Positions 9,262 through 26,208 of a stretch of DNA of 64,000 nucleotides are shown in pieces. The notes under the pieces were generated by a model. That model was given only the letters and a program-made list of their open reading frames with translations. It searched no databases and was not told where the DNA came from. The translations under genes were made by a program, and so were the position numbers. Source of the DNA: Micrococcaceae bacterium Sec5.1. Lineage in GTDB: Bacteria > Actinomycetota > Actinomycetes > Actinomycetales > Micrococcaceae. The stretch's first letter is position 1; each line of letters opens with the position of its first letter. The stretch spans positions 1,178,001 to 1,242,000 of the forward strand of contig CP143430.1 of NCBI GenBank assembly GCA_039636795.1, written 5' to 3'.

Positions 9262-9469
9262 GGACTTGACGGTATCCGCGGGCGCGCATCGCGATTTTGT
9301 GGGGTCCGTACAAAGGGGTGCTAGGGATTTTGGAGCGCCTTTATGGATCCTGGGCGAGACGGCTGGTGCAGAAGTTACAGCTGTGAAACATCGTTGTGAC
9401 TGATTTGACCCGCTGCGTGACTAGCGTCGTTGGCGAAGCACCGACCACGAATTTCGAAAGTGAGCACGG

Positions 9470-11146
9470 ATGAGCGACGTTCTGACAGACACCCAAAGAG
9501 CTACGACGGCGGGGAACGCCGATGCGATGAGCGCTGCGAAGGAGAGCCTGGAAGATTACACACTCCGGTTCGCCCCGCGCTCTTACCGGAAGTGGAGCGC
9601 CGGTGTGGTGGCGACCAGTGCCCTTGGCGGGATTGCCTACCTGGCTGACTTCTCCATCGGGGCCAACATCGGCATCGCCTACGGCACAGTGAATGCTATC
9701 TTCGGGATCATTGTGGCCGCGGTGATCATCTTCGCCACCGGCTTTCCGCTGGCGTATTACGCCGCCCGCTATAACATCGATCTTGACCTCATCACCCGTG
9801 GGTCAGGCTTTGGCTACTACGGGTCAGTGGTCACAAACATCATTTTCGCCACCTTCACCTTTATCTTCTTTGCCCTCGAAGGCTCCATCATGGCCCAGGG
9901 CCTGCAATTGGGGCTCGGTGTCCCGCAGTGGCTTGGCTACGCTGTTTCCACGATCATCATCATTCCGCTGGTGATCTACGGGATGAAGACGCTGGCTACT
10001 CTGCAAGTTTGGACCACGCCCTTGTGGTTGCTGCTCATGGTGGTTCCCGTTGGTTATTTGCTGCTGTCACACCCGGACAGCATCGACGCCTTCTTTGCAT
10101 ACACCGGGGCTTCGGGCGAGGGCGGCACCAATCTCGCGTCGGTGATGCTGGCTGCCGGCGTCTGCCTCTCCCTGATGGCCCAGATCGCAGAGCAGATCGA
10201 TTACCTGCGCTTCATGCCACCCAAGACGGCAGAGAACAAGGGTGCTTGGTGGCGTGCCGTCATTCTTGCTGGACCCGGCTGGGTTATTTTCGGTGCCATC
10301 AAGCAGATTGTGGGCATGTTCATAGCCATCTACTTGATCGCCAGGCTCGATCCCGCCGCCTCCGTGCACGCCAACGAACCGGTCCACCAGTTCCTGGGCG
10401 TGTACCAGGAGATGATGCCGGCCTGGCTCGCGATGTCCCTGGCCGTTGTGTTGGTGGTTATTTCGCAGATCAAGATCAACGTCACCAACGCCTATTCCGG
10501 CTCGCTGGCCTGGACCAATTCGTTCACCCGCATCACCAAGACTTACCCCGGCCGGATGGTTTTCGTGGTGGTCAACCTGGTGATTGCGTTGATCCTCATG
10601 GAGTCGAACATGTTCGAGTTCCTCAACACGATCCTGGGGTTCTACGCGAACTGTGCCATGGCCTGGGTGGTCACAGTTGCCTCTGATATCGCGATCAACA
10701 AGTACCTGTTGAAGATCTCACCCAAGGTTCCTGAGTTCCGCCGAGGCATGCTCTACGCCGTCAACCCGGTCGGGTTCGTGTCCATGCTGGTGTCCGCAGG
10801 CATCTCCATCGCGGTCTTCTTTGGGGCTTTCGGCGTTGGAGTCCAACCGTATTCGCCGATCTTCGCCGTCGGCCTGGCTTTGGTACTTCCGCCGGTCCTG
10901 GCTTTGGCGACGCGTGGCCGCTACTACCTGCGCCGCACCGACGACGGAATTGATCTGCCCATGTTCGACGCCGACGGAAACCCCAGCGACGAGAAGCTCC
11001 TCTGCCACGTCACCGGCCTTGAGTTCGAACGCCCGGACATGCTCCGCTCAGGCCAGGACGGACCCGACGGCGAACCCCGCTTCATCTCTTCCCTCGCCTT
11101 GTCTACGGACAAGTCGGGCGCACTGGTGCTGCCAGCCCAGAAATAG
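9470..11146 (+). CDS. NCS1-family purine/cytosine-type permease
   Basis: The 558-residue integral membrane protein has about 12 hydrophobic segments and NCS1 landmarks: LRFAPRSYRKWSAG near the N-terminus, GIVVAAVI-type second helix, DLITRGSGFGYYGS and the conserved INVTNAYSGSLAWTN segment. Family members import nucleobases, allantoin, hydantoins or thiamine precursors with Na+ or H+. It has an unusually long hydrophilic C-terminal tail (about 90 residues after RTDDGIDLPMFDADG). It is divergent from bioB. An adenine deaminase and a cytosine deaminase are encoded elsewhere in this window, but no substrate can be assigned from sequence. Confidence 0.88.
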   Translation: MSDVLTDTQRATTAGNADAMSAAKESLEDYTLRFAPRSYRKWSAGVVATSALGGIAYLADFSIGANIGIAYGTVNAIFGIIVAAVIIFATGFPLAYYAARYNIDLDLITRGSGFGYYGSVVTNIIFATFTFIFFALEGSIMAQGLQLGLGVPQWLGYAVSTIIIIPLVIYGMKTLATLQVWTTPLWLLLMVVPVGYLLLSHPDSIDAFFAYTGASGEGGTNLASVMLAAGVCLSLMAQIAEQIDYLRFMPPKTAENKGAWWRAVILAGPGWVIFGAIKQIVGMFIAIYLIARLDPAASVHANEPVHQFLGVYQEMMPAWLAMSLAVVLVVISQIKINVTNAYSGSLAWTNSFTRITKTYPGRMVFVVVNLVIALILMESNMFEFLNTILGFYANCAMAWVVTVASDIAINKYLLKISPKVPEFRRGMLYAVNPVGFVSMLVSAGISIAVFFGAFGVGVQPYSPIFAVGLALVLPPVLALATRGRYYLRRTDDGIDLPMFDADGNPSDEKLLCHVTGLEFERPDMLRSGQDGPDGEPRFISSLALSTDKSGALVLPAQK

Positions 11147-11156
11147 CCCCCCTCAC

Positions 11157-11186
11157 CCAAGTAGGTCGCAGCAGAGCGCGTTTTGA
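11157..11186. repeat. Left arm of a 66-bp palindrome split by the IS30 element
   Basis: This 30-base arm begins CCCAAGTAGGTCGCAG and is the exact reverse complement of 12489-12518. Removing the insertion sequence and one GTA target copy restores a 66-bp palindrome with a six-base loop (AGTACG). It directly follows the stop of the NCS1 permease gene, where it would also have acted as a transcript 3'-end hairpin. Confidence 0.85.
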
Positions 11187-11190
11187 GTAG

Positions 11191-12483
11191 GCGATGTCAA
11201 GGGGTGCGTGCAACACGGCCGTGGTTAGGCTGCCTGTTCGAAGAGTAGCTGGTTGAGACGTTGTGCCGGGGTGTCCAGGTTCAGGGTGGGCCGTGGTCTG
11301 CGGTTCAAGGAGTCCTGGATCCGTTTGAGGTCCTTGGCGGTGTATTCGGACAGGTCCGTGCCTTTTTCGAACCAGTGGCGAAGTAGGCGGTTCGTGTTCT
11401 CGTTGGTTCCGCGCTGCCATGGTGAGTGGGGGTCGCAGAGGTAGACCGGAGCGTCCAGTTCCATGCGGATTTGTTCGTAGCCGGCAATTTCCGAACCGCG
11501 GTCCCAGGTGATGGTCCGGCGCAGGTGCTCGGGCAGGTCCTTCATTTGGGCGATCATTGCCGCGGTGACGGCGTCGGCGCCATGGTCCAGGGGTAAATGG
11601 AGGAGGATCGTGAACCGCGTACTGCGCTCGACCAGTGTGCCAATGGCGGATTTGCCGCGTGCTCCGATGATGAGATCACCTTCCCAGTGCCCTGGCACGG
11701 CGCGGTCGGCTACTTCAGCCGGTCGTTCGCTGATCTTCAGAGCATCGTTGAACCGGCCCCGGGTTTCGCCGTCCTGGGTCTTCTCACGAGGCACGCGGGC
11801 CTTGCGTTTGAGGCTCAAGTACTGAGAGAGGTCCTTGCGCAGTTGGCCGCGGGTCTGAACGTAAAGGCACTTGTAGATGGTCTCGTGGCTGATCTGCATG
11901 GATACATCATGGCCGTGTTCCTTGGCCAGGACATCGGAGATCAGCTTCGGACTCCACCCCTCTTCGAGGTTCTCGGCGATGAACGTCGACAACCCGGAGC
12001 TGATGATCTTGAACGGCTTGGGACGCAATGCCCGGGCAGCGGCCCGGGCATTGGCAGTCCCGGCATAGTAGAGACCGTCCGGGCCGCTGTTTCGGCGGAT
12101 TTCCCGCCAAACAACACTCCGGTGACGCCCCAGCGTCGCGGCAATCCCGGCAACGCTCTTACGTTCCCGCAGACCGATCTGGATCTCTATCCGTTCATCC
12201 AGGCTCAACGGATGACCCGGGCCGGACGGGCTATCCGCCCGACCCGGACCCGCGATACCGCCTCCGCCTTTTCCCTTTATCAGCTCCATGGCACCAGCTT
12301 CATGCCACCACCTCGTGCCACCGCGCCTCGACACACCCACATCACCGGCAGCAACCGCCAACGCAGTGCCCGAGCAAACCAACGCTATGAAACGATCACG
12401 ATCAACCTGACCAAACGAAAACCTTGTAACCAACGCAACCTCCACCGAAACCAGGAATGTTGCACTGACCATATGATTCCGCC
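11191..12483. mobile_element. IS30-family insertion sequence, about 1.29 kb
   Basis: The element encloses one transposase gene and is bounded by imperfect inverted ends: GGCG..TCA...GG.....GTGCAACA at 11191-11216 and its counterpart at 12458-12483. GTA flanks both sides (11188-11190 and 12484-12486), fitting the 2-3 bp target duplications of IS30 elements. It sits exactly in the loop of a 66-bp palindrome, so insertion was probably guided by the palindrome. The gene is intact and the flanking arms are still identical, suggesting a recent insertion. Confidence 0.85.
11225..12433 (-). CDS. IS30-family transposase
   Basis: The DDE transposase has an N-terminal helix-turn-helix (VAAGDVGVSRRGGTRWW), the IS30 helix-turn-helix LSLDERIEIQIGLRERKSVAGIAATLGRHRSVVWREIRRN, and the catalytic triad in GHWEGDLIIG (D), ITWDRGSE (D) and NENTNRLLR (E). 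The C-terminus, LNRRPRPTLNLDTPAQRLNQLL, is also family-typical. TTG 12433 is chosen because GGAGG precedes it by five bases and it keeps the first helix-turn-helix; an ATG at 12289 would remove that domain, and the frame upstream of 12483 lies outside the element. About 402 residues, full length. Confidence 0.92.
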   Translation of the reverse strand: MVTRFSFGQVDRDRFIALVCSGTALAVAAGDVGVSRRGGTRWWHEAGAMELIKGKGGGGIAGPGRADSPSGPGHPLSLDERIEIQIGLRERKSVAGIAATLGRHRSVVWREIRRNSGPDGLYYAGTANARAAARALRPKPFKIISSGLSTFIAENLEEGWSPKLISDVLAKEHGHDVSMQISHETIYKCLYVQTRGQLRKDLSQYLSLKRKARVPREKTQDGETRGRFNDALKISERPAEVADRAVPGHWEGDLIIGARGKSAIGTLVERSTRFTILLHLPLDHGADAVTAAMIAQMKDLPEHLRRTITWDRGSEIAGYEQIRMELDAPVYLCDPHSPWQRGTNENTNRLLRHWFEKGTDLSEYTAKDLKRIQDSLNRRPRPTLNLDTPAQRLNQLLFEQAA

Positions 12484-12488
12484 GTACG

Positions 12489-12518
12489 CAAAACGCGCTC
12501 TGCTGCGACCTACTTGGG
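12489..12518. repeat. Right arm of the IS30-split palindrome
   Basis: Perfect 30-base reverse complement of 11157-11186, ending TACTTGGG. Together the arms mark the original hairpin; see the family members at 17853-17918 and 26143-26208. Confidence 0.85.
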
Positions 12519-12559
12519 CTGGCGCTGCGCACGAATAGTCAGGATGCTTAGAATGAGGC

Positions 12560-13609
12560 ATGGCACAGGATGAATGGAACGAAGAGACAGGGCCGACCGG
12601 AGAATCTGAGCAGGCCGAGGGATCCGGTCAGGCCGCGGAATCTGAGCAAGTCGAGTCAACAACCGACCTCGACGAAGACATCGCGATGGCTTTGGAAAAC
12701 CACGTCCTTAACCCGGCGGAGGACCCTGAAGACGCGTCTGATCCACGAACCATGTATCCATCGGGGGAGTTCGAGCCGCAAACCCAGGACTATCCGGGCT
12801 GGACCGAGGCAATGATCCCGCGGCCGGACCACGGGGAGCATAGCTATGTGGGCCATCATCGCATGATGGGATTCCGGACCTTGATTACGGGCGGCGACAG
12901 CGGGATCGGGAAAGCCGTGGCCATTGCCTTCGCCCGTGAAGGTGCAGATGTGGCGTTCACGTATTTGCCGGAAGAGGAGCAGGACGCCGAATTGACGGTC
13001 CAGCTGATCGAGGCCGCGGGCAGCCGTGCCCTCGCGCTTCCAGGGGATCTGCGGGACGAGGAATTCTGTCAGGAAGTCATCGCCCAAACCCTCCAAGAAT
13101 TCGATGGCCTGAACGTCCTGGTGAATAACGCAGGGTTCCAAATGACTACGAGCCAGGGGATCGAAGACCTTAGCAGCGAACAGTTCGACCGGACCTTTAA
13201 GAGCAATGTCTATGCACTCTTCTGGCTTATCAAAGCGGCCCTGCCGCACTTGCAGCCAGGGGCCTCGATCATCAACACCTCATCGATCCAGGGTTACCAT
13301 CCGAGTCCCTCGCTGATCGATTACGCCGCCACCAAGGCCGCCATCAACAGCATGACGTTCTCGTTGGCAGAATCCCTGGGCCCCAAGGGAATCCGGGTCA
13401 ATGCCGTAGCTCCCGGGCCGGTATGGACTCCCTTGCAGCCGCCAACCCAGCCGGAGGAGAAAATTGTAAAGTTCGGACAGGACACCCCTCTCGGAAGGGC
13501 AGGTCAGCCTGCTGAACTTGCCGCCACGTATGTCCTGCTGGCAACAGACGAGTCCAGCTACATTTCCGGATCGGTCATTGGAGTGACCGGCGGAAAGCAC
13601 CTCGCCTAA
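12560..13609 (+). CDS. SDR-family oxidoreductase (YghA/glucose-dehydrogenase-like subgroup)
   Basis: The 349-residue product has an acidic Glu/Gln-rich N-terminal extension of about 60 residues, then MYPSGEFEPQTQDYPGWTEAMIPRPDHGE, a lead-in typical of this long SDR subgroup. The Rossmann fold follows: TGGDSGIGKAVAIAF (cofactor loop), NNAG, catalytic Ser in INTSSIQ and YAATK for the Tyr-Lys pair. Members reduce aldehydes or ketones with NAD(P)H and are often stress-induced. The substrate is unknown. A TAGAAT -10-like hexamer lies five bases before the ATG, so the message may be leaderless. It converges with the zinc alcohol dehydrogenase gene. Confidence 0.9.
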   Translation: MAQDEWNEETGPTGESEQAEGSGQAAESEQVESTTDLDEDIAMALENHVLNPAEDPEDASDPRTMYPSGEFEPQTQDYPGWTEAMIPRPDHGEHSYVGHHRMMGFRTLITGGDSGIGKAVAIAFAREGADVAFTYLPEEEQDAELTVQLIEAAGSRALALPGDLRDEEFCQEVIAQTLQEFDGLNVLVNNAGFQMTTSQGIEDLSSEQFDRTFKSNVYALFWLIKAALPHLQPGASIINTSSIQGYHPSPSLIDYAATKAAINSMTFSLAESLGPKGIRVNAVAPGPVWTPLQPPTQPEEKIVKFGQDTPLGRAGQPAELAATYVLLATDESSYISGSVIGVTGGKHLA

Positions 13610-13655
13610 GGCGCCAGCCACCGGTTCCCTCCGGTCAAGAGGATCTTCCAAGAAG

Positions 13656-14831
13656 TCAGGGCTTGAGCACCACCTTGATGCAGCCGTCCTGCTTCTTCTG
13701 GAATTTCTCGTACAAGTCAGGGGCGTCATCCAGACCACCTGTGTGGGTGACCAAATGCATGACTCCCAGCGGATCGGCGTCGTCCTCTACCAAGGGGAGC
13801 AGCTGGTCAGTCCAGCTGCGGACGTTGCATTGCCCCATGCGGAGTTGGACTTGCTTGTCGAACATGGTCATCAGTGGCATGGGGTCGGCCTGGCCGCCGT
13901 AGACGCCGCTGAGTGAAATAGTCCCGCCGCGCCGCACCAGATCCACTGCCGTGTGGAGGGCGGCAAGACGGTCCACGCTCATGGTCTCCATGGCTACCTG
14001 TGCCGGCTTATCAGGGAGCAGGGAAACGGCCCGATGCAGGAATGAGGCCACTGGTGAGCCGTGGGCTTCCATGCCCACGGCATCCACTACCGAGTCCGGA
14101 CCACGGCCGAGGGTCTCCTCGCGGATCTGCGCGGCGACGTCCGGGCTGTAGTCCATGGTCTCCACTCCGTGTGCTTCCGCCATTGCCCGGCGCTCAGTAA
14201 CTGGATCCACACCAATGACGCGGAAACCCTTGTGGACGCCAATTCTGGAGGCGAACTGGCCCACAGGACCCAGCCCCAGCACTGCCAAGGTGCCGCCCTC
14301 GGGGACGTTGGCGTATTCGACGGCCTGCCATGCAGTGGGAAGGATGTCCGAGAGGAACAGGTAGCGCTCGTCGGGGAGGTCGGAATCTACTTTGATGGGT
14401 CCGTAGTCTCCGAAAGGCACACGCAGATACTGTGCCTGGCCGCCTGGGACGGAGCCATAGAGTTCTGAGTATCCAAAGAGTGCAGCCCCCGTACCTTTGG
14501 CTTTGACTTGCGTGGTTTCGCATTGGGATTGAAGGCCTTGGTTGCACATGTAGCACCGGCCGCAGGAGATGTTGAAGGGCACCACAACGCGGTCGCCCTT
14601 CTGGAGCCGGTGGACCTCTGAGCCCACTTCTTCCACGATTCCCATGGGCTCATGGCCGATGACGTCGCCCTTGTGCATGTAAGGGCCCAGGACTTCGTAG
14701 AGGTGCAGGTCCGAGCCGCAAATGGCTGAAGATGTTATTCGGACAATGACATCGGTTGGTTCCTGGATGGTGGGATCGGGGACATCAATGACGCTCAATG
14801 AACGCCTGCCCTGCCACGTCACTGCTTTCAC
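13656..14831 (-). CDS. Zinc-dependent alcohol dehydrogenase, formaldehyde-dehydrogenase-like
   Basis: The 391-residue medium-chain dehydrogenase has catalytic-zinc residues in AICGSDLHLYE and GHEPMGIVEEVG, the structural-zinc cysteines in CGRCYMCNQGLQSQCE, and the NAD fold in LAVLGLGPVGQFASRIG. Length and layout match the glutathione-independent formaldehyde dehydrogenase/threonine dehydrogenase-like subgroup common in actinobacteria, which oxidises small alcohols or aldehydes; the substrate is not determined. The N-terminal MKAVTWQGRRSLSVIDVPDP is typical. It is convergent with the upstream SDR gene, 47 bases apart. Confidence 0.9.
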   Translation of the reverse strand: MKAVTWQGRRSLSVIDVPDPTIQEPTDVIVRITSSAICGSDLHLYEVLGPYMHKGDVIGHEPMGIVEEVGSEVHRLQKGDRVVVPFNISCGRCYMCNQGLQSQCETTQVKAKGTGAALFGYSELYGSVPGGQAQYLRVPFGDYGPIKVDSDLPDERYLFLSDILPTAWQAVEYANVPEGGTLAVLGLGPVGQFASRIGVHKGFRVIGVDPVTERRAMAEAHGVETMDYSPDVAAQIREETLGRGPDSVVDAVGMEAHGSPVASFLHRAVSLLPDKPAQVAMETMSVDRLAALHTAVDLVRRGGTISLSGVYGGQADPMPLMTMFDKQVQLRMGQCNVRSWTDQLLPLVEDDADPLGVMHLVTHTGGLDDAPDLYEKFQKKQDGCIKVVLKP

Positions 14832-14930
14832 AATCGCTCTCCCTGCTTTGGGGGCTGGAGGTGTCCCGCGCTGCAGGAGACCATCCCAGCGAAGCAGAGT
14901 TGGCAGCGCCGCACAAGGTCTTCGGTAGCC

Positions 14931-17834: not shown

Positions 17835-17852
17835 TGGTTTAACGTGTGGCCA

Positions 17853-17918
17853 CCCAAGTAAGTCGCAGTTGAGCGCATTTTGAGTGCTCAGAACGCGCTC
17901 AACTGCGACTTACTTGGG
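17853..17918. repeat. 66-bp palindromic element with CCCAAGTA tips
   Basis: Perfect 24-base arms (beginning CCCAAGTAAGTCGCAG) flank an 18-base centre. The total length of 66 bp equals that of two other palindromes in this window. The right arm supplies a possible -35 (TTGGGT, 17914-17919) for the following GntR gene. Confidence 0.85.
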
Positions 17919-17933
17919 TAAGTCACGTCCTGC

Positions 17934-17947
17934 TTCCTATAGGATTT
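17934..17947. promoter_or_regulatory. Candidate GntR operator at its own promoter
   Basis: TTCCTATAGGATTT contains the palindrome TCCTATAGGA and overlaps a -10-like TATAGG (17938-17943) nine bases before the regulator's ATG. The same 14 bases, inverted, occur at 18791-18804 before the catabolic operon. Confidence 0.65.
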
Positions 17948-17952
17948 GTGGC

Positions 17953-18651
17953 ATGTCTGAACCTTCGCCGGCTCTTCCCCGCCCGGGCTTTCCCGTCAGC
18001 CGCCAGGTGTTGGCCGATCACGTTTATGAAGCCCTCCTCGAGTGGCTCATGGATGGTCGGCTCGAACCCGGGGCCGCCGTCAGCATCGACGGAATGGCGC
18101 GGGAACTGGACGTTTCTCCGACCCCGGTGCGTGAAGCGTTGGCGCGACTGGAGCATACGGGCATGGTGCGGCGCGTGGCGTTGAAAGGGTATCGGGTAGC
18201 TCCCGTGTTCACACGCGAGGATTTCGCTGAACTCATGGAAGCCCGGCTTTCGATTGAGCCCGTGAATGCCCGCCTTGCGTGCGAGCGCATGACGTCGGAA
18301 GGCCTGGACGCCCTGAAGCAAGCGGTCGAGGATCTCAAGACTGCACCCCGGGGCGGCACGTTTGCTGAGTACCGAAGCTACCTTGAGGCTGACGAGCGCT
18401 TCCACCAATTGATCGCGGCGCAAGCGAGGAATCAGTTCCTGCTCGCCGCTTACAACACTTTGGGCGGGCAGATCCAGCGCTTCCGTTTGTTTGGGGGAGT
18501 GGGCATCACTGACGCGGAGCAGGCTATCGCCGAGCACCAAGCCGTCCTCGACGCGATGACGAGCGGGGACCCCGGGAAAGCGGCCGACGCAATGGTCAAT
18601 CACGTGGAAAAGGTGCGGGGTCGGGCCATTGCTGACGCGCCGGAGGACTGA
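17953..18651 (+). CDS. GntR-family regulator, FadR/FCD subfamily
   Basis: The 232-residue protein has an N-terminal winged helix-turn-helix (about residues 15-75: DHVYEALLEWLMDGRLEPGAAVSIDGMARELDVSPTPVREALARLEHTGMV) and an all-helical FCD effector domain (about 85-220: FAELMEARLSIEPVNARLACERM..., with DERFHQLI and HQAVLDAM supplying likely metal/ligand residues). ATG 17953 sits right behind an operator-like palindrome and a -10 box, suggesting leaderless, self-repressed expression; the open frame back to 17884 lies inside a palindrome. It is probably the repressor of the catabolic operon that starts 180 bases downstream, with the substrate or a phosphorylated intermediate as inducer. Confidence 0.92.
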   Translation: MSEPSPALPRPGFPVSRQVLADHVYEALLEWLMDGRLEPGAAVSIDGMARELDVSPTPVREALARLEHTGMVRRVALKGYRVAPVFTREDFAELMEARLSIEPVNARLACERMTSEGLDALKQAVEDLKTAPRGGTFAEYRSYLEADERFHQLIAAQARNQFLLAAYNTLGGQIQRFRLFGGVGITDAEQAIAEHQAVLDAMTSGDPGKAADAMVNHVEKVRGRAIADAPED

Positions 18652-18670
18652 ATACTGCTGCTTGATAAGG

Positions 18671-18698
18671 GCTCGTCGCTGGTGCGGCGGGCTTTTTT
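18671..18698 (+). terminator. Rho-independent terminator of the GntR gene
   Basis: GCTCGTCGC / GCGGCGGGC form a nine-pair stem (with G-U pairs) around TGGT, followed directly by six T residues. It separates the regulator from the catabolic operon, so that operon needs its own promoter. Confidence 0.8.
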
Positions 18699-18734
18699 CA
18701 TGCGCTGAGTGAGCCCCTTCACAGACATATGTAA

Positions 18735-18804
18735 GACATATAGGATCTAGGAAGTTTCGCGAAAAGGGTTGACAGCTTTGCTTGGATCGTAAATCCTATA
18801 GGAA
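18735..18804 (+). promoter_or_regulatory. Promoter and GntR operators of the catabolic operon
   Basis: TTGACA (18769-18774) is a perfect -35. The -10 region 19-20 bases later is covered by AAATCCTATAGGAA (18791-18804), the exact inverse of the 14-base motif at the GntR gene. A partial copy, GACATATAGGATCT, lies at 18735-18748. A repressor bound over the -10, with help from the upstream site, is the simplest reading. Confidence 0.6.
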
Positions 18805-18831
18805 ACAGGATTCCACGAAGGAGTGATCATC

Positions 18832-19833
18832 ATGGCGTATACCGCCGAGAATTGGCCCATCACCGCGGCCCTCCTGCAGTTCCCCGGGGCAGACGCTGCA
18901 GGACAACACGTGAACGACGCCGATGCTTCCGTTTGGGCTGCCGTCCTGCAGGAAGTGAAGGAGGCGGGCTTTGCCAACGCCGACCTCACGGACAGCTGGG
19001 TCCGTCCGGGTGATCTCAGCAACGAGCGTCTGACCGAGTTCAAGCAGACGGCTGACGAAGTGGGCATCGGAGTGCCGGTCATTTCCGCAATCCGCCGCAG
19101 CGTCATCCACCAGACGGACTGGGCCGACAACCTCGCCTACAGCCACCGCACCATCGACGCCGCTGCAGAGCTTGGCTGCGAGGTCGTGTCTTTTGGTCTT
19201 CACCAGGCCCTCACTCCGGAGCAGCAGAAGCAACTGTGGTTCTGGACGGTGGAGGGCTACAAGGATCCGGTAGAGGACAAGGAAATGTGGGGCAACGCCG
19301 TCTCCCGCCTTCGTGAACTTGGCAAGCATGCAGCAGAGGCGGGCATCCTCATCTCCCTGGAAATGTACGAGGACACCTACCTCGGCACCGCTGATTCATC
19401 CGTGCAACTGGTCCAGGACATCGGCTTGGACAACGTCGGCCTCAACCCGGACCTGGGCAACCTGATCCGCCTGCACCGTCCCATCGAGGACTGGCGCGAG
19501 ATGGTGGCCAAGACCCTGCCGTACTCCAACTATTGGCACATGAAGAATTACATCCGCGACGAAGATGTGGCCCGTGACAGCTACATCACCATGCCCGCAC
19601 CCATGGAAAGTGGCCTGATCAACTACCGCGAGGCATTCAAGTTCGCTCTCTCGGTCGGCTTCCAGGGCATCCTCTGCACTGAGCACTACGGTGGCGACGG
19701 ACTCAGCGTCACGGCCAGCAACCAGGAATACCTGCGCCGCCACGTCCTGCCCAAGACCGAGGATTACAAACTCGGCAAGAGCGAAGTAGCTCAAGGACGC
19801 CAGGCACCGGTAAACCAGCTCGCAGGAGTCTAA
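18832..19833 (+). CDS. Sugar phosphate isomerase/epimerase-like TIM-barrel enzyme (xylose-isomerase-like)
   Basis: The 333-residue protein belongs to the AP-endonuclease-2/xylose-isomerase-like TIM barrels. Likely metal and substrate residues lie in VVSFGLHQ, ISLEMYEDTYLG (Glu at the end of a strand), VGLNPDLGNL (Asp), NYWHMKNY (His/Lys) and ILCTEHYGGDG (Glu/His). ATG 18832 is chosen for its AAGGAG site eight bases upstream. It heads the operon. Members isomerise, epimerise or (OiaC type) decarboxylate 3-oxo sugar acids. With a hydroxy-acid-dehydrogenase-like gene downstream, a decarboxylase making a ketotetrose is an attractive but unproven role; a plain isomerase is the alternative. Confidence 0.85.
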   Translation: MAYTAENWPITAALLQFPGADAAGQHVNDADASVWAAVLQEVKEAGFANADLTDSWVRPGDLSNERLTEFKQTADEVGIGVPVISAIRRSVIHQTDWADNLAYSHRTIDAAAELGCEVVSFGLHQALTPEQQKQLWFWTVEGYKDPVEDKEMWGNAVSRLRELGKHAAEAGILISLEMYEDTYLGTADSSVQLVQDIGLDNVGLNPDLGNLIRLHRPIEDWREMVAKTLPYSNYWHMKNYIRDEDVARDSYITMPAPMESGLINYREAFKFALSVGFQGILCTEHYGGDGLSVTASNQEYLRRHVLPKTEDYKLGKSEVAQGRQAPVNQLAGV

Positions 19834-19836
19834 GGA

Positions 19837-21585
19837 ATGACACAGATTTTCGACAACCCGGCAGACTTTGCCGATGAAGCATTGGATGGCTTCGTTGCCG
19901 CCAACCGCGGCTATGTTGCCCGGGTGGATGGCGGCGTGGTCCGCTCCACCGAAGTACCTGCAGGGCAAGTGGCGTTGGTGGTCGGCGGCGGTTCCGGGCA
20001 CTACCCGGCCTTTGCTGGACTGGTCGGCCCCGGGCTCGCAACGGGCTCGGCCTGCGGCAACATGTTCGCCTCCCCCGCAGCTGGCCAAGTGTACCGCGTG
20101 GCCAAAGCGGCCAATGCTGGAGGCGGAGTCCTGCTGAGCTACGGCAACTACGCTGGCGATGTCCTTCACTTCAGCCAGGCACAACTCCGCCTCAACGCCG
20201 AGGGCATCGAAACGCGCACTGTCACCGTCACGGACGACATCGCCAGCGCGCCGATCGATCAACTCGAGAAGCGCCGCGGCATCGCAGGCGACCTGACAGT
20301 CTTCAAGATCGCCGGCGCCGCCGCCGAAGCGGGACTGAACCTCGACGACGTCGAGCGTTTGGCCATCAAAACCAACTACCGCACTCGCTCGCTGGGCGTG
20401 GCCTTCGACGGCTGCACTCTTCCGGGTGCCAAGGATCCGCTGTTCCACGTTCCTGCCGGGCAGATGTCGCTGGGCCTCGGAATCCACGGTGAGCCCGGCA
20501 TCTCCGAGCACCCGATGCCCACCGCGTCCGAGCTTGCGGAGCTTCTGGTTTCCAAGCTGCTCGCGGACAAGCCCGACGACGCCGGGGACCGCGTGGTGGC
20601 GATCGTGAACGGCCTGGGCACGGTGAAGTATGACGAGCTCTTCCTGTTGTTCGGCAAGGTCGAGAAGCTGCTCACCGCCGCTGGCCTTACCGTTGTTCAA
20701 CCGGAATGCGGCGAACTGGTCACCAGTCTGGACATGTCCGGACTGTCCCTGACGCTGCTCTGGCTGGACGATGAACTCGAACAGTATTGGGCGGCGCCCG
20801 CGGATACCCCCGCTTTCCGCAAGGGCAGCATGGCACCCCGTGCAGCACGCGCCGAGGCAGCGATCGTCGACGCCGAAACCGCCGACGTCGAACAGGCCAC
20901 CCCGGCGGCGGCGGAACTCGGGCGGCAGGCAGTGGCCATCCTCGCCCAGGTGCGTGACGTCGTCGTCGAACACGAAGACGAGCTCGGCAAGCTGGACGCT
21001 ATCGCCGGCGATGGTGATCACGGAATCGGCATGCGCCGCGGCGTCGACGCTGCGGCTGCTGCTGGGGAAGCCGCATCCGGCTCTTCGGTAGCGCGAATCC
21101 TCCTCGCGGCCGGCGAAGCATGGAGCGAACGTGCCGGCGGAACTTCGGGCGCATTGTGGGGCTCGGCGGTCATTGCGGCCGGGCAGTCGCTCGGGAACCG
21201 TGAAACGTACAGCTCCTCGGATGCCGCCGACGCGGTGAATGCCTTCGTCCTGGCCATCACCGAACTCGGCAAGGCCGAGCCCGGAGACAAGACCATGGTG
21301 GACGCCCTCTTGCCGTTCCGGGATGCGTTCCTGACCGAGCTCGACGGCGGTGCGCCCGTGGATCGGGCACTGGCAGCAGCCGCTGCGGCTGCTGAATTGG
21401 CTGCCGCGCAGACCGCTGAACTTCGCCCGCTCAAGGGCCGGGCGCGCCCACTTGCCGAGAAGAGCCTCGGCCATCCGGATCCCGGCGCAGTCTCCTTTGG
21501 CCTGATCGCCACGAGGATCTCCCACCACATCGATTCACTACTGGCCAGCGCTGCTTCAGCGGCTCCGGCCGGAAACGGAGCCTGA
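19837..21585 (+). CDS. DhaK-DhaL fusion kinase, dihydroxyacetone/erythrulose kinase type
   Basis: The 582-residue ATP-dependent kinase joins DhaK (about 1-335) and DhaL (about 365-570). DhaK shows [33 protein letters not shown], and GIHGEPGI contains the histidine that binds ketose substrates covalently. DhaL shows [10 protein letters not shown] for Mg-ATP and GGTSGALWG. Such fused kinases phosphorylate dihydroxyacetone or, in mycobacterial tetritol pathways, L- or D-erythrulose (LerK/DerK). The neighbouring RpiB-like and TIM-like genes favour an erythrulose-type ketotetrose. It starts three bases after the stop of the first gene and is followed two bases later by the RpiB-like gene. Confidence 0.92.
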
Positions 21586-21587
21586 GA

Positions 21588-22070
21588 ATGAGCGATACAC
21601 AAGGCTGGCGCATCGTCGTCGGCAATGACGAAGCCGGAGTGGAATACAAGCAAGCACTCCTGGCGCTGTTGGAATCCGACCCGCGCGTTGCATCTGTGAC
21701 CGACGTCGGAGTGGGTGCCAACGATTCCACGGCGTATCCCCACATCGCCGTCGATGCCGCCCGCAAGGTAGCTGATGGTGAGTTCGATCGCGCCCTCCTG
21801 ATCTGCGGCACCGGGCTGGGCGTGGCCATTGCGGCCAACAAGGTCCCCGGAATCCGTGCGGTTACGGCCCACGACAGCTACTCGGTGGAACGATCCGTAC
21901 TGAGCAACAACGCGCAGGTCCTCACGCTCGGGCAGCGGGTGATTGGCTTGGAACTGGCCAAGAAGCTCGTAGGGGAGTGGCTCGGCCACCGCTTTGACCA
22001 AAACTCATCCTCCGCCGCCAAGGTGGACGCCATTTGCTCCTACGAGCCCAACTACACGAAGGCAGTTTGA
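21588..22070 (+). CDS. RpiB/LacAB-family sugar phosphate isomerase (EryI-like)
   Basis: The 160-residue protein matches the RpiB fold: [16 protein letters not shown] at the N-terminus, [27 protein letters not shown] (catalytic cysteine in CGTGLG and the anion-binding loop) and [14 protein letters not shown]. RpiB proper isomerises ribose 5-phosphate; paralogues in tetritol operons (EryI) convert D-erythrulose 4-phosphate to D-erythrose 4-phosphate. Tight linkage to a DhaKL kinase and a TIM-like isomerase favours the tetrose role here. The usual DHxG near the N-terminus is NDEAG in this protein, a difference worth noting for substrate choice. Confidence 0.88.
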
Positions 22071-22072
22071 TC

Positions 22073-23062
22073 ATGACCATTCCTGAAGCAACCGAAGGCA
22101 CCGCGAAAAACGCAGCCCGGAAGATCGCCGTCGTCGGCTCCGGCTACATGGGCGGCGGCATCGCCCAGGTCCTGGCGCTCGGCGGGGCACGCGTGGCTTT
22201 GGCGGATGTGTCCGCCGAGATCGCGCAGAAGAACTTCGATCGCCTGCTGGTCGAATCCGATCAGTTCATCGCCGATGGGCTCTTTCCGGCGGGATCCACT
22301 GAAATCCTCAAGCAGAACCTGTGGGCTGCGAAGGACATCGAGGAAGCCGTTGCTGATGCCGACTTCATCGAGGAATGCGTTCCCGAGGTCCTGGAAATCA
22401 AGCACCAGACCCTGGCCCGGATCAGCGCCGCGGCCAAGCCGGATGCCCTGATTGGCTCCAACACGTCCACGATTTCCATTGCCGCCCTGGCAGAAGCCGT
22501 GACCAACCCGGAGCGGTTCCTGGGCATTCACTTCTCCAACCCGTCGCCGTTTATCCCCGGCGTGGAGGTCATTCCGCACGCCGGCACTGCCGCCGCCTCG
22601 GTAGCCGCTTCCCGCGAGCTGGTTCACGCGGCCGGTAAGCAGACTGCCGTCGTCAAGGACGTGACGGGTTTTGTGCTCAACCGCCTGCAGTACGCGCTGT
22701 TCCACGAGGCTGCGCAGCTGGTGGAGCAGGGCATCGCAACAGCGGACGACGTCGACACCCTGGTGCGTACGACGTTCGGCTTCCGTTTGCCGTTCTTTGG
22801 TCCGTTCGCGATCGCGGACATGGCCGGTTTGGATGTCTACAACTTCTGCTACAAGTCCCTGCAGACCGGCTTCCCGGAGCGGTTTGCAACGCCGAAGATC
22901 CTGTCGGACCTCGTGGAGGCAGGCAAGCTCGGCACCAAGACCGGTGCCGGTTTCCTCAACGTCCCGGCCGAGCGCACGCCGGAACTCATCGCGTATCGGA
23001 ACAAGGCCTACGTCGCCATGCAAAAGCTCATTGAAGAGCTTGGCCCGGCACCCATCAACTAA
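22073..23062 (+). CDS. 3-hydroxyacyl-CoA dehydrogenase-family NAD enzyme, probably a hydroxy-acid dehydrogenase
   Basis: The 329-residue enzyme has an N-terminal NAD fold (KIAVVGSGYMGGGIAQVLALGGARVALAD), the catalytic-region segments IEECVPEVLEIKHQTLARI, SNTSTISIAALAEAVTNPERFLGIHFSNPSPFIPGVEVI, and a C-terminal helical domain VTGFVLNRLQYALFHEAAQLVEQGIA...DMAGLDVY. The family includes hydroxybutyryl-CoA, carnitine and L-gulonate 3-dehydrogenases. The sugar-catabolic setting suggests oxidation of a 3-hydroxy sugar acid to a 3-oxo acid. ATG 22073 is chosen; it falls two bases after the RpiB-like stop. The upstream extension of the frame reads through the previous gene. Confidence 0.88.
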   Translation: MTIPEATEGTAKNAARKIAVVGSGYMGGGIAQVLALGGARVALADVSAEIAQKNFDRLLVESDQFIADGLFPAGSTEILKQNLWAAKDIEEAVADADFIEECVPEVLEIKHQTLARISAAAKPDALIGSNTSTISIAALAEAVTNPERFLGIHFSNPSPFIPGVEVIPHAGTAAASVAASRELVHAAGKQTAVVKDVTGFVLNRLQYALFHEAAQLVEQGIATADDVDTLVRTTFGFRLPFFGPFAIADMAGLDVYNFCYKSLQTGFPERFATPKILSDLVEAGKLGTKTGAGFLNVPAERTPELIAYRNKAYVAMQKLIEELGPAPIN

Positions 23063-23083
23063 CCCTTTTTCAGGAGATCCTTC

Positions 23084-23851
23084 ATGAGCACTTTCCCCTC
23101 TGAACGCACCGCCATCGTCACCGGCGCTGTTTCCGAGCGCGGCATCGGCCGCGCAACAGTGAACTACCTGGCCGCCCAAGGCTGGAACATCGGCATCATC
23201 GATCTTGACGACGCCGCCTGCAAGGCTGCAGCGAAGGAAGTTGCTGCAGAATACGGGGTCCAGGCCCACGGAGTCGGCGCGAACGTCGCCAGCGAAGCCG
23301 AAGTCCGGGCTGCGATCGATGAGCTGGAAGCCGAGCTGCCGCAGATCGTCGCCTTGGCCAATGTTGCCGGCGTCAGCTCACCCATCGGCTACCTGGAACT
23401 CGAACCTGCTGAGTGGGATCGCGTGCTGAGCATCAACCTCAACGGTGTCCACTACGCCACCCGCCGGGTGGCCGAATCCATGGTGAAGAACCGGATCGGC
23501 CGGATCGTGAACATCTCCTCGGTGTCGGCGCAGCGCGGTGGCGGAACGTTCTCCAAGACCCCCTACTCGGTGGCCAAAGCCGGTGTCATCGGCCTGACCC
23601 GTGCCACGGCCCGGGAACTGGGCGAATACGACATCACCGTCAACGCGATCTCGCCCGGCCCCATCGACACCGACATTATGGGCGGAACCCTGAGCCAGGA
23701 ACGCAAGGACGAACTGACCAAGGACCTCGTGGTGAACCGTGTGGGCTCCACCAGGGACATCGCCGCCGCCATCGCCTTCCTCATCAGCGAGGACTCCGGA
23801 TACATCTCCGGGCAGACGCTGAATGTGGATGGCGGTCTGTACATGCACTAG
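23084..23851 (+). CDS. SDR-family dehydrogenase in the catabolic operon
   Basis: This 255-residue classical short-chain dehydrogenase has TGAVSERGIGRATVNYL (cofactor loop), an Asp after the second strand (IIDLDD) that favours NAD over NADP, LANVAGVSS, the catalytic Ser in VNISSVSAQRGG and the Tyr-Lys pair in PYSVAKAG, with the C-terminal SGYISGQTLNVDGGLYMH. The start follows AGGAGATCCTTC. It probably oxidises a polyol or sugar acid that feeds this pathway; the substrate cannot be read from sequence. Confidence 0.93.
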   Translation: MSTFPSERTAIVTGAVSERGIGRATVNYLAAQGWNIGIIDLDDAACKAAAKEVAAEYGVQAHGVGANVASEAEVRAAIDELEAELPQIVALANVAGVSSPIGYLELEPAEWDRVLSINLNGVHYATRRVAESMVKNRIGRIVNISSVSAQRGGGTFSKTPYSVAKAGVIGLTRATARELGEYDITVNAISPGPIDTDIMGGTLSQERKDELTKDLVVNRVGSTRDIAAAIAFLISEDSGYISGQTLNVDGGLYMH

Positions 23852-23880
23852 GGCTTCCCCGATATGAAGACCCTGACGAT

Positions 23881-23973
23881 ATGAAGGCCTGGACCAGAGA
23901 ACGCAAGATCTACCTTGCCGTGGGCATCCTTGCCTGCGCAGTGGGCATGGTGCTCATTTTCTTCCCGCGCTGA
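23881..23973 (+). CDS. 30-residue single-pass membrane peptide
   Basis: A short frame between the SDR and transporter genes encodes MKAWTRERK, a hydrophobic helix (IYLAVGILACAVGMVLIFF) and PR at the end. A basic N-terminus, one transmembrane span and position just before a transporter gene are what a small transporter-associated peptide would show. The ribosome site is weak and the frame also lies within a longer shadow frame, so it may be non-coding. Confidence 0.4.
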   Translation: MKAWTRERKIYLAVGILACAVGMVLIFFPR

Positions 23974-24028
23974 TGGCGCGCTGCGTTAGCCATCTCAACC
24001 CCAACTGATTGCTCAAAGAGGAGTTTCA

Positions 24029-25378
24029 ATGTCCGTTGCCTCAACTTCCACCAAGGAGTTGCTGGATTCGCCGATTCTGAAGTCGGCCATATCCAAGGCT
24101 TCTCGGCGGCTGATGCCGATGCTCGTCATCCTGTACGTGGTGGCGTTCCTTGACCGCACCAATGTGGGCTTCGCCGAAGCTGCCCTTGGGGTGGACAAAG
24201 GTATCACCGCGGGTGCTTACGCCCTGGGTGCCGGTATCTTCTTCATCGGCTATGCCCTGTTCGAGATCCCCAGCAACTTGCTGCTTACCAAGTTCGGCGC
24301 CAAAGTCTGGCTTGCCCGCATCGCCATCACCTGGGGCATAGTGTCCGCGTGCTTTGCCTTCGTGCAAGGCGAGACGTCTTTCATCATTCTCCGCTTCCTG
24401 CTGGGTGTCACCGAGGCAGGACTCTTCCCAGGCGTCATCATGTTCCTCGCCGCATGGTTCCCCAACAAAGTCCGCGTGAAGATGTTCGCCATCTTCTACC
24501 TGGCTCAGCCTCTCTCCCAGATGCTTGGGGCTCCGCTGTCCGGGTGGCTCATCAACATCGGCGACCAGGTTCCCGGGATCGCCGGATGGCAGGTCATGTT
24601 CTTCGTTGAAGGTTCGTTGGCCATCGTGGCCGGCATCGCGTCCTTCTTCTTCCTCATCAACAGCCCACAGGATGCCAAGTTCCTGAGCAAAGAAGAGAAG
24701 CTTGCCCTGACGGATGTCATGGCACTGGAAGACACCGTCAAGGAAGAATCAGGTCCGCGCGGCGTCCTGGCTGCCATGCGCAACGGTCGTGTCTGGTACT
24801 TCACCGTCATCTACTTCTGCCTGCAGATCGCGGTCTACGGCGTCACGTTCTACTTGCCGCAGCAGGTGTCCCAGCTCACCGGCCAAAAGGTGGGGCTCGC
24901 CGTCGGACTCCTGGCCGCTATCCCGTGGTTCTTCGGGATCTTTGCCTGCTACTTCGTTGGCAAGGCGGCAAACACGGTTGCACGTCGTCGCCGCTGGGGC
25001 ACCGCATTGTTCATCTCCACGGGTCTTTGCATCTTCGGTTCAGCCTGGGCCGGCGCCAACCACCTTCCGGCGCTCGGCATTATCTTCATCAGCCTGGCGG
25101 TGTGCAGCTTCCTGTCGACCGGTCCCATCTGCTGGTCATATCCGACGGCGTTCCTCACCGGAACTGCTGCGGCTGCGGGTATCGGGCTGATCAACTCCCT
25201 GGGCAACCTCGGCGGCTTCGTCGCACCGATCCTTCGCACCACGGTCAACCAGGTCACAGCTTCGGACACGGGCACTATGGGTGTCTACGCTCTGGGTGTC
25301 CTGCCGTTCCTGGCCGCGGTGATGATGTTCGGCACCCGGGCCTTCACCAACAAGGCCGACGAGTTGCTGGACAAGTAA
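24029..25378 (+). CDS. MFS transporter, anion:cation symporter (ACS) family
   Basis: The 449-residue, 12-segment transporter shows ACS features: RLMPMLVILYVVAFLDRTNVGFAEAAL in the first helix, GYALFEIPSNLLLTKFGAKVWLARI, and GVTEAGLFPGVIMFLAAWFP. Relatives take up organic or sugar acids (tartrate, hexuronates, phthalate) with H+. Placed within the catabolic operon after an AAAGAGGAG ribosome site, it is the likely importer of the pathway's substrate, which argues for an acidic compound. Its stop is two bases before the GTG of the TIM-like gene. Confidence 0.92.
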   Translation: MSVASTSTKELLDSPILKSAISKASRRLMPMLVILYVVAFLDRTNVGFAEAALGVDKGITAGAYALGAGIFFIGYALFEIPSNLLLTKFGAKVWLARIAITWGIVSACFAFVQGETSFIILRFLLGVTEAGLFPGVIMFLAAWFPNKVRVKMFAIFYLAQPLSQMLGAPLSGWLINIGDQVPGIAGWQVMFFVEGSLAIVAGIASFFFLINSPQDAKFLSKEEKLALTDVMALEDTVKEESGPRGVLAAMRNGRVWYFTVIYFCLQIAVYGVTFYLPQQVSQLTGQKVGLAVGLLAAIPWFFGIFACYFVGKAANTVARRRRWGTALFISTGLCIFGSAWAGANHLPALGIIFISLAVCSFLSTGPICWSYPTAFLTGTAAAAGIGLINSLGNLGGFVAPILRTTVNQVTASDTGTMGVYALGVLPFLAAVMMFGTRAFTNKADELLDK

Positions 25379-25380
25379 CC

Positions 25381-26151
25381 GTGAGTAGTGCTGCCCTTAC
25401 AGGCCCCTTGTTTATTGGGGTCAGTACCAAGATGTACATGGGTTATGCGCAGAGTCTGGCGTGGCTGGAGCAGTTGCTGGCAGAAGTGGACGCCCGTCCG
25501 GCCCTTGGGGCCGGGCGGGTGGTCCCGTTTGTGATCCCGTCATTCCCGGTGCTGCCCACAGCGTCCGCGATGATTCAGGGTTCGCCGTTGGTCCTTGGGG
25601 CCCAGAACTGTGGCTGGTCGGATGGGCCGTGGACTGGCGAAGTCTCACCGTCGATGCTGGTCGAACTTGGCGTCGGCCTGGTGGAGATCGGCCATGCCGA
25701 ACGGCGCCGGTACTTTGCCGAAGACGATGCGATGGTAGCCCTGAAGGTTCGTGCCGCCGTCGACGCCGGCCTGACGCCATTGCTGTGCGTCGGGGAGGCC
25801 GTGCTTGCTGAACCTGAAGATGCCGCCGCTACCGTCTTTGGTCAGGTCAAGGCGGCCGTGTCCGGAGACTGGTCGGTCGCTTCACAACTGGTGATCGCCT
25901 ACGAACCCGTGTGGGCGATCGGTGCTGCAGAGCCGGCGTCGGCTGCTTATGTTTCCCAGGTTGTAGCTGCACTGCGGGGATTGCTCGGTGCCCACGGATT
26001 GGCTGAGCTGCCCATCATCTATGGCGGCTCGGCAAAACCGGGTCTGCTGCCGCAGCTGAATGGTGTCTCCGGACTCTTCCTGGGCCGCTTCGCGCACGAC
26101 GCCACAAACTTCGGCCGTGTGTTGGACGAAGCCCTCGCCCTCCCCAACTGA
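25381..26151 (+). CDS. Triosephosphate-isomerase-like enzyme (EryH/LerI-like)
   Basis: The 256-residue TIM homologue keeps the catalytic residues: Lys in IGVSTKMYMG, His in VEIGHAERRRYF and Glu in VIAYEPVWAIG, plus the phosphate loop YGGSAKPG and FLGRFAHD. It differs from housekeeping TIM (STKMYM instead of NWKMN). Such paralogues in tetritol operons isomerise L-erythrulose 1-phosphate to D-erythrulose 4-phosphate, fitting its place after the DhaKL and RpiB-like genes. The GTG at 25381 is the start; the frame upstream reads through the transporter gene. The stop lies within the next palindrome. Confidence 0.9.
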   Translation: MSSAALTGPLFIGVSTKMYMGYAQSLAWLEQLLAEVDARPALGAGRVVPFVIPSFPVLPTASAMIQGSPLVLGAQNCGWSDGPWTGEVSPSMLVELGVGLVEIGHAERRRYFAEDDAMVALKVRAAVDAGLTPLLCVGEAVLAEPEDAAATVFGQVKAAVSGDWSVASQLVIAYEPVWAIGAAEPASAAYVSQVVAALRGLLGAHGLAELPIIYGGSAKPGLLPQLNGVSGLFLGRFAHDATNFGRVLDEALALPN

Positions 26152-26208
26152 CTGGCATTTGTGGTTGTTCCCAGAGCTGGGAACAACCACTATTGCCAGT
26201 TACTTGGG
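26143..26208. repeat. 66-bp palindromic element at the operon end
   Basis: Left side CCCAACTGACTGGCA (26143-26157) pairs with TGCCAGTTACTTGGG (26194-26208), and a perfect inner stem GTGGTTGTTCCCAG/CTGGGAACAACCAC (26161-26190) closes on a two-base loop. It has the same 66-bp length and, on the right side, the same CCCAAGTA tip as the elements at 17853 and 11157/12518. It overlaps the TIM-like stop codon and could end the transcript. Confidence 0.8.

Follow-up and report, generated by a model that had tools for sequence, protein, structure and literature searches.

Organization and conservation of the operon

The genome of Micrococcaceae bacterium Sec5.1 is a single 5.43 Mb contig (CP143430.1), and positions 1,178,001 to 1,242,000 of its forward strand (G000:C1:1178001-1242000) make up the 64,000-nucleotide stretch analysed here and referred to as the window. 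The subject of this analysis is an operon of eight forward-strand genes at window 17953-26151, coding in order for a GntR family regulator, a xylose-isomerase-like TIM barrel (hereafter the barrel), a DhaK-DhaL fusion kinase, an RpiB-like isomerase, a 3-hydroxyacyl-CoA-dehydrogenase-like enzyme (HCDH), a short-chain dehydrogenase/reductase (SDR), a major facilitator superfamily (MFS) transporter and an isomerase resembling triosephosphate isomerase (TIM). This order and strand had been given in the initial annotation, and all eight genes are present in the sequence with agreeing Pfam domains. The description of short gaps throughout holds for most junctions, the gaps from gntR to the TIM-like gene being 180, 3, 2, 2, 21, 177 and 2 bases, and fails before the barrel gene (180 bases) and between the SDR and MFS genes (177 bases), where the gap holds a small open reading frame (ORF).

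Conservation was assessed in the best 80 of 588 confirmed loci with the barrel in a scan of genome contigs, a set of Micrococcaceae type in which 79 loci are titled Arthrobacter, Paenarthrobacter, Pseudarthrobacter or Micrococcaceae and one is an Acidobacteria metagenome-assembled genome; the closest are from Arthrobacter and Paenarthrobacter, with barrel protein identity of up to 95%. Genes in unannotated loci were called by a heuristic based on GC content at third codon positions (GC3), and some starts and frames are misplaced. The barrel, kinase, RpiB-like and HCDH genes occur together in 77 of the 80 loci, and the three without this complete core (L031, L040 and L104) stop at contig ends. 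SDR, MFS and TIM-like genes are additionally present in 65 of the 80 at the identity thresholds of the script. The other 15 comprise the three contig-end loci, eight core-only loci (L086-L088 and L090-L094) without SDR, MFS or TIM matches, L079 and L082, with SDR and MFS paralogues of 53-54% and 39%, and two in which, at the same thresholds, MFS or TIM (L029) or SDR or MFS (L081) was not found. Given this conservation, the gene order is not a product of chance.

The barrel and its dehydrogenase partners

The first enzyme gene (18832-19833, forward strand) encodes the 333-residue barrel, a member of PF01261 (AP_endonuc_2), for which we propose the role of a 3-oxo-sugar-acid decarboxylase releasing CO2 and forming erythrulose. 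Its best PDB sequence match is 5tnv (314 bits over residues 3-303), listed there without a function as 'AP endonuclease, family protein 2' and presumably from Mycobacterium smegmatis. The two proteins share the barrel family, and by eye the letters of 5tnv are close to the barrels of L024 and L025, where HCDH adjoins. The sole other PDB match is 3vyl, a ketose 3-epimerase (E 0.0095). The barrel reaches no NCBIfam cut-off, scoring 25 bits against the 300 required for psicose 3-epimerase. Residues E177, D207, H236 and E284, its four putative metal ligands, are invariant in 14 aligned sequences including that of the window, and the predicted model has a mean pLDDT of 86.

HCDH (22073-23062, forward strand; PF02737 and PF00725), the proposed sugar-acid C3 dehydrogenase, belongs to the 3HCDH family and has S132, H153, E165 and N203 invariant in nine aligned sequences including that of the window, a Ser/His/Glu/Asn set that we take to be catalytic. 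Its PDB matches include 4om8, a 3HCDH enzyme (172 bits), and the lambda-crystallin homologue 3f3s (118 bits). In two protein searches, which covered the best 120 of 3322 and of 4402 matches, the annotations of these proteins read sugar phosphate isomerase/epimerase and 3-hydroxyacyl- or 3-hydroxybutyryl-CoA dehydrogenase.

The two genes travel together well beyond the loci described above. Among 396 genomes of the order, the barrel is found in 99, HCDH in 82 and both in 79 (Fisher p 7e-60, uncorrected for relatedness); by genus, HCDH occurs in 27 of 109 and the barrel in 36 of 109. Where both are present they share a contig at a distance of no more than 30 kb in 76 of the 79 genomes and lie within 6 kb in 67. 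Three genomes have HCDH without the barrel, and for 12 of 88 HCDH places there is no barrel within 30 kb. A sample of 296 genomes of the class, partly overlapping with that of the order and searched at E 1e-30 or better for the barrel and E 1e-80 or better for HCDH, has the barrel in 13, HCDH in 12 and both in nine, with starts within 3.3 kb of each other in all nine.

Clusters with the barrel and lacking HCDH were inspected in 19 of the 20 such genomes of the order, a fragment in G574 being left out, and 17 of the 19 carry another beta-hydroxyacid-type dehydrogenase. Five have a HIBADH-type enzyme between the barrel and the kinase (L151, L156 and L162-L164), and in six an SDR gene precedes one for a HIBADH-like enzyme with 38-40% identity (L147, L149, L150, L158, L159 and L161), the HIBADH type being assigned by Pfam for three proteins and by similarity for the others. 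Four have PdxA with Tct transport genes (L152, L155, L157 and L160), and two an SDR only (L153 and L154). The remaining two are L146, where a 2-hydroxyacid dehydrogenase is accompanied by an SDR match that is weak and distant, and L148, a 5 kb contig on which no dehydrogenase was found. Further PdxA and Tct matches lie 5-7 kb from the barrel in L149, L150 and L161. Within the class sample, PdxA and Tct genes are found in L020, and an Iso_dh enzyme with Tct matches in L017. The cluster of Sinorhizobium meliloti (L001) has an annotated PdxA and a tripartite transporter adjoining the barrel and kinase. PdxA, Iso_dh, HIBADH and 3HCDH enzymes are known to act on a hydroxyl group in the beta position to a carboxylate or thioester. 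The main support for C3 oxidation and subsequent decarboxylation comes from this exchange, since the interchanged families would have in common the production of a beta-keto acid that is handed to the barrel.

Homologues of HCDH (52-53% identity) also occur in L139 and L140, where the barrel is absent and an enzyme for the cleavage of beta-keto acids (PF05853) is encoded nearby, and these loci perhaps represent an uncharacterised beta-hydroxyacid pathway; L140 additionally has a metallo-beta-lactamase-type gene near the HCDH homologue. In L141 and L142 an HCDH homologue lies away from the barrel and beside an SDR. Another arrangement is seen in L022, where the barrel, kinase and RpiB genes have as neighbours an ABC transporter and a gene resembling that for adenosine deaminase, and no dehydrogenase is clearly recognisable. 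Taken with the co-occurrence, the exchange of dehydrogenases and the conserved residues, the neighbours in L139 and L140 support the front end first suggested for this operon, in which a beta-hydroxyacid would be oxidised and the resulting beta-keto acid would pass to the barrel.

Beta-keto acids can lose CO2 spontaneously, so the product of HCDH might decarboxylate unaided and the barrel might instead isomerise or epimerise a compound upstream or downstream of that step, as the match to the ketose 3-epimerase 3vyl would allow. We regard this as improbable, in that the constant partner across the clusters is the barrel and not HCDH, with several dehydrogenase families arranged around it.

A probable tetrulose-phosphate module

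The kinase gene (19837-21585, forward strand; PF02733 and PF02734) encodes fused DhaK and DhaL domains and a GIHGEPG motif with His217, presumably the covalent substrate-binding histidine. It thus has the domains and histidine of LerK, and is proposed to phosphorylate L-erythrulose at C1. The RpiB-like protein (21588-22070, forward strand; PF02502, LacAB_rpiB) is a proposed D-erythrulose 4-phosphate isomerase, and the last gene of the operon (25381-26151, forward strand; PF00121) encodes the TIM-like, and apparently LerI-like, isomerase.

The genome holds three RpiB, three TIM and three Dak1 genes, distributed between the window, a second module at 402.6-405.5 kb and scattered copies, the third TIM gene adjoining pgk. 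The window proteins are closer to the second module (kinase 55%, RpiB 63% and TIM 42% identity) than to the single-copy paralogues (39% for the kinase, measured on the DhaK part against a separate DhaK, 27% for RpiB and 33% for TIM), and the window RpiB is 42% identical to that of a rhizobial erythritol-type cluster. Against the curated D-erythrulose 4-phosphate isomerase model, the name of which is rhizobial, the window RpiB scores 160.6 of the 240 bits needed, the second-module RpiB 143.6 and the single-copy RpiB 66.6. The RPI_actino model (cut-off 168.2) is passed by all three, at 194.9, 205.2 and 202.6 bits, and does not separate them.

The best PDB match of the TIM-like protein is 3s6d, a 'putative triosephosphate isomerase' (140 bits), followed by 11ef, named as an L-erythrulose-1-phosphate isomerase (136.8 bits), with ordinary TIMs from 118.6 bits. 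The canonical N-W-K is S-T-K in the window protein, with H and E retained. Serine occupies the first of these positions in 11 of 12 aligned tetrulose-module sequences (the window included) and glycine in the other (L019); the pgk-linked TIM retains N, and the aligned letters of 11ef are TSWKM. In viral contigs, a scan for the TIM-like protein turned up two relatives, at 36% identity.

PMC10733421 describes a route from tetritols to erythrose 4-phosphate by way of EltD, LerK, LerI and DerI. On the strength of that route, the kinship with the second module, the N-to-S change and the 11ef match, we infer the kinase step and two isomerase steps here, so that the earlier assignment of these three genes to a tetrulose-phosphate module stands.

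The GntR regulator and its predicted operator

The regulator gene (17953-18651, forward strand) encodes a GntR family protein with an FCD domain (PF00392 and PF07729), for which none of ten NCBIfam matches reaches its cut-off. A palindromic putative operator, TCCTATAGGA, lies at 17935-17944, 8 bp upstream of the gntR start, and a second exact copy at 18794-18803, 28 bp upstream of the barrel gene. These are the only two exact matches in the 5.43 Mb genome; a reversed control of equal composition has four. In 53 of 66 of the conserved loci, looser operator patterns occur in the 260 bp preceding gntR. The operator core CCTATAGG is present in the 260 bp leading up to the barrel gene in all 66 loci that hold the GntR gene, in one (L059) of the 11 that lack it and have more than 4 kb of upstream DNA, and in all three that are cut short upstream. 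The operator is linked to the regulator by this co-distribution of CCTATAGG with the GntR gene. GntR is thus predicted to bind TCCTATAGGA before its own gene and before the barrel gene, and gntR is probably autoregulated through this site. The operator positions make a role as repressor plausible, the direction of control being, like the binding, a prediction from sequence.

Upstream of the operator, at window 17852-17919, is an inverted pair resembling a repetitive extragenic palindrome (REP) and built on CTCAACTGCGACTTACTTGGGT. Allowing up to two mismatches, CTCAACTGCGACTTACTTGGGT has 15 matches in the genome, including three occurrences as inverted pairs 46 bp apart, and its reversed control has none.

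SDR, transporter and a probable small membrane protein

The SDR (23084-23851, forward strand; PF13561/PF00106) is FabG-like and a proposed second dehydrogenase. Its best PDB sequence matches are 3-oxoacyl-ACP reductases, and resemblance to FabG is common among SDRs. Homologues of 45-53% identity adjoin the barrel in eight of the 19 clusters without HCDH. The MFS transporter (24029-25378, forward strand; PF07690) is of the D-galactonate/ACS-like type, and its top model is TIGR00893 (D-galactonate transporter) at 263.7 bits, below the cut-off of 395.

The 177-base gap between these genes contains an unannotated ORF of 30 residues (23881-23973, forward strand) for a probable membrane protein with a single span, as judged by eye. 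A matching ORF is present in each of the 48 conserved loci whose SDR and MFS genes are 145 bp or more apart, and in none of 16 with shorter gaps, using a motif (mostly W-S/T-R/K-x-R-x-x-Y-L) that was written from the sequences of the same loci; cruder earlier patterns gave 27 of 64 and then 48 of 64, including picks in the wrong frame. In wider contexts the ORF is seen in L015, and not in L016, L021 (gap of 175 bp) or L026. Its 40 relatives in the protein database, from Arthrobacter where an organism is given, are named 'hypothetical protein' or, in one case, 'uncharacterized membrane protein', and all are without Pfam domains; the sole Pfam match of the window ORF is DUF475 (E 0.095), at 13 bits where the cut-off is 27. 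The ORF belongs to the operon, and its product is a candidate accessory protein of the carrier.

Following the last gene, between convergent genes at window 26161-26190, a perfect hairpin with 14-bp arms (GTGGTTGTTCCCAG AG CTGGGAACAACCAC), read by eye, is likely a terminator.

Substrate and proposed pathway

The operon as a whole is best explained, and we think with a fair margin of confidence, by C3 oxidation of a pentonate, decarboxylation to erythrulose and conversion to erythrose 4-phosphate. The MFS carrier would import a five-carbon sugar acid, and HCDH, perhaps together with the SDR, would oxidise its C3 hydroxyl to give a beta-keto acid, from which the metal-dependent barrel would remove C1 as CO2. 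The resulting erythrulose is most likely the L form, which is favoured because a LerI-like isomerase is present. The kinase would convert it to L-erythrulose 1-phosphate, the TIM-like enzyme would isomerise this to D-erythrulose 4-phosphate, and the RpiB-like enzyme would form D-erythrose 4-phosphate, which enters the pentose phosphate pathway. GntR would control the process by binding TCCTATAGGA before its own gene and before the barrel gene. This chemistry, from C3 oxidation to erythrose 4-phosphate, is that of the initial annotation and is well supported by inference.

An acidic substrate had also been suggested from the outset, and the neighbourhoods of related barrels bear this out in part. 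Acid-type carriers recur, with GntP in L024 and L025 and TctA/TctC accompanying PdxA in other relatives, and L056 has an extra MFS gene inserted together with a 2-hydroxyacid dehydrogenase. The suggestion does not extend to the eight core-only loci, which have no MFS gene, and of which L086 carries upstream of its core LacI, an ABC sugar transporter, Gfo/Idh, a barrel, ThuA and a second Gfo/Idh. Gene lists were viewed for L086, L088 and L094, with Pfam run on L086 and one L088 permease, and these core-only loci are possibly a version of the module entered from glycosides.

Oxidation of a pentonate at C3 and loss of its C1 as CO2 leave erythrulose with the configuration that the acid has at C4, and this, with the use of LerI, points to an L-pentonate as the substrate. 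Our best guess is L-arabinonate or L-ribonate, for example, which would fit best because HCDH, if the preference of its family is kept, takes the L-3-hydroxy configuration; the FabG-like SDR could serve the opposite C3 epimers. Genes for GH51-type arabinofuranosidases lie near the barrel in three of 112 context loci (L018 13438-14928, L151 4091-5620 and L026 from 18335), directly after HCDH in L018 and, in L151, with a GH3 gene between the GH51 gene and the barrel. They hint at arabinose chemistry and are too rare to carry weight.

Several points weigh against this pathway. The conserved residues of the barrel do not separate a decarboxylase from an epimerase, because the decarboxylases and epimerases of its superfamily have a common metal site. 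The genome searches scored the best five to seven HCDH candidates per genome, so that the co-occurrence counts are those of the closest homologues. In L022 and L146 the barrel and kinase are accompanied by only weak SDR matches (34% over 97 residues and 32% over 193 residues), and in L019, where the upstream side is cut by the contig start, no such dehydrogenase was found. L017 and L023 have the barrel without the kinase or isomerases in the stretch examined, which in L023 is 19.5 kb and includes an HCDH-barrel pair. Near their cores, L018, L022 and S. meliloti L001 showed no TIM gene, and L001 no RpiB gene. The SDR has no assigned step in the pathway, and the core-only loci, judged by L086, appear to take in a sugar rather than an acid.

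A broader reading, which we put forward tentatively and hold to be possible rather than probable, is that the 333-residue barrel forms a general node for the decarboxylation of 3-oxo-pentonates, with at least five families of dehydrogenase (3HCDH, PdxA, HIBADH, FabG-like SDR and, in one locus, Iso_dh) interchanged around it, constituting a third pentonate route besides phosphorylation and dehydration. HCDH and the SDR of the window would then act on opposite configurations at C3, and the operon could lead several L-pentonates, for example L-arabinonate or L-ribonate by HCDH and L-xylonate or L-lyxonate by the SDR, into one pool of L-erythrulose, with the 30-residue membrane protein assisting the carrier.

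If the proposed pathway is correct, it provides a C3-oxidation/decarboxylation route for five-carbon sugar acids with a barrel present in 99 of 396 genomes of the order, and testable names for proteins that at present go by sugar phosphate isomerase/epimerase or by 3-hydroxyacyl- or 3-hydroxybutyryl-CoA dehydrogenase. The operon would also offer a cleanly matched regulator and operator, together with a small membrane protein that had been overlooked. The gene combination is not described in the abstracts and passages searched, among them passages of PMC11747546 and PMC10733421; subscription journals were mostly outside this coverage, the longer result lists were covered only in their top entries, and absence is therefore unproven.

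Comparison with known pathways

The closest layout is found in the same genome. Locus L118 (G000:C1:393000-412900) contains the second tetrulose-phosphate cluster at 7864-14927 (G000:C1:400.9-407.9 kb), with genes for an MFS transporter, kinase, RpiB, TIM, a 270-residue barrel and a PGDH_C (PF16896) protein, and an adjoining GntR gene. A plasmid locus of Erwinia sp. E602 (L123) has MFS, kinase, TIM-like, barrel and PGDH_C genes in a row and rpiB nearby; its barrel is 53% identical to that of L118, and its annotation names no apionate enzyme. A D-apionate pathway via ApnO, OiaC, LerK, LerI and EryI was reportedly described by Carter et al. in 2018. We take the PF16896 gene to be of ApnO type, the 270-residue barrel, from its layout, to be of OiaC type, and the shared layout of L118 and L123 to be the apionate route. 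By this analogy the L118 cluster is presumed to be the apionate operon of the genome.

The window operon shares with this layout a DhaKL kinase, TIM-like and RpiB-like isomerases, an MFS transporter, a barrel with an NAD-binding enzyme and the presumed product erythrose 4-phosphate. It differs in having HCDH, an SDR and a distinct 333-residue barrel in place of an ApnO-type PGDH_C enzyme, and its GntR is just 26% identical to that of L118. PF16896, found in L118, was not found in the window operon; HCDH has no PF16896 domain by Pfam and no significant match to the L118 PGDH_C protein (15 bits). The two barrels are about 22% identical over 110 residues and align by hhalign with 96% probability (E 2e-9) and matching metal-site positions. 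The window barrel does not behave as an orthologue of OiaC in this comparison, in which the 270-residue L118 protein, itself assigned to OiaC by layout, stands for that enzyme. The label of OiaC-type barrel originally given to the first enzyme would thereby pass to the L118 protein, which sits beside the ApnO-type gene; the candidacy of the window barrel as the OiaC of the genome was dropped once that cluster was found. Because L118 has ApnO- and OiaC-type genes and the window barrel and HCDH are unlike them, the window operon would run parallel to the apionate route, and the initial annotation was probably right in its pathway logic and wrong in that label.

A second apionate (or apiose) operon, with HCDH in the role of ApnO and the barrel as a divergent OiaC, is nonetheless suggested by the common kinase, TIM and RpiB set, by the hhalign alignment with its matching metal sites and by L086, where two Gfo/Idh proteins, presumably of the family of apiose dehydrogenase, are encoded upstream of the core. 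We consider it unlikely. A PGDH_C cluster is already present in the genome and a duplicate would need a reason; the barrel identity of 22% and the 15-bit match of HCDH are low, and relatives pair the barrel with other dehydrogenase families, none of which is to our knowledge a hydroxymethyl-migrating enzyme.

Tetritol pathways provide the other comparison. M. smegmatis reportedly catabolises tetritols by LerK, LerI and EryI, and a rhizobial cluster on R. johnstonii pRL12 (L122), which we take to be for erythritol, has a kinase, a dehydrogenase, a TIM barrel, TIM and RpiB. The tetrulose kinase and isomerase steps would be common to these pathways and the window operon, whereas in the window operon the first steps would fall to a dehydrogenase of beta-hydroxyacid type and to a barrel for which no relation to that of L122 was detected. 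Assignment of the window barrel as an EryC-like 3-epimerase was dropped on an hhalign probability of 1.1% between its profile and the L122 barrel, a weak test with a single sequence on one side. The same genes would also allow a tetritol operon in which erythritol or threitol would be the substrate of the SDR, the barrel would act in the manner of EryC as an epimerase of erythrulose or erythrulose phosphate, and HCDH would be an accessory, and the placing of a TIM barrel beside the TIM and RpiB genes in L122 is in keeping with this. Such an operon seems a poor prospect given the low hhalign score to that single sequence in the EryC position, the presence of the barrel in 79 of 82 HCDH genomes, the HCDH-barrel pair that stands without kinase or isomerases in the 19.5 kb of L023, and the GntP or Tct acid transporters of some relatives.

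The front end of the proposed C3-oxidation and decarboxylation pathway finds its nearest precedent elsewhere. L-gulonate 3-dehydrogenase (lambda-crystallin) forms 3-dehydro-L-gulonate, the decarboxylation of which yields L-xylulose. The likeness is in the oxidation of an aldonate at C3 by a 3HCDH-family enzyme followed by loss of CO2, and the difference in the six-carbon substrate and pentulose product of that route and in HCDH being nearer to 4om8 than to 3f3s. The pairing of HCDH with the 333-residue barrel is, from their sequences, distinct from the enzyme pair of the known apionate route, and a single genome would thus have one tetrulose-phosphate module fitted with different front ends.

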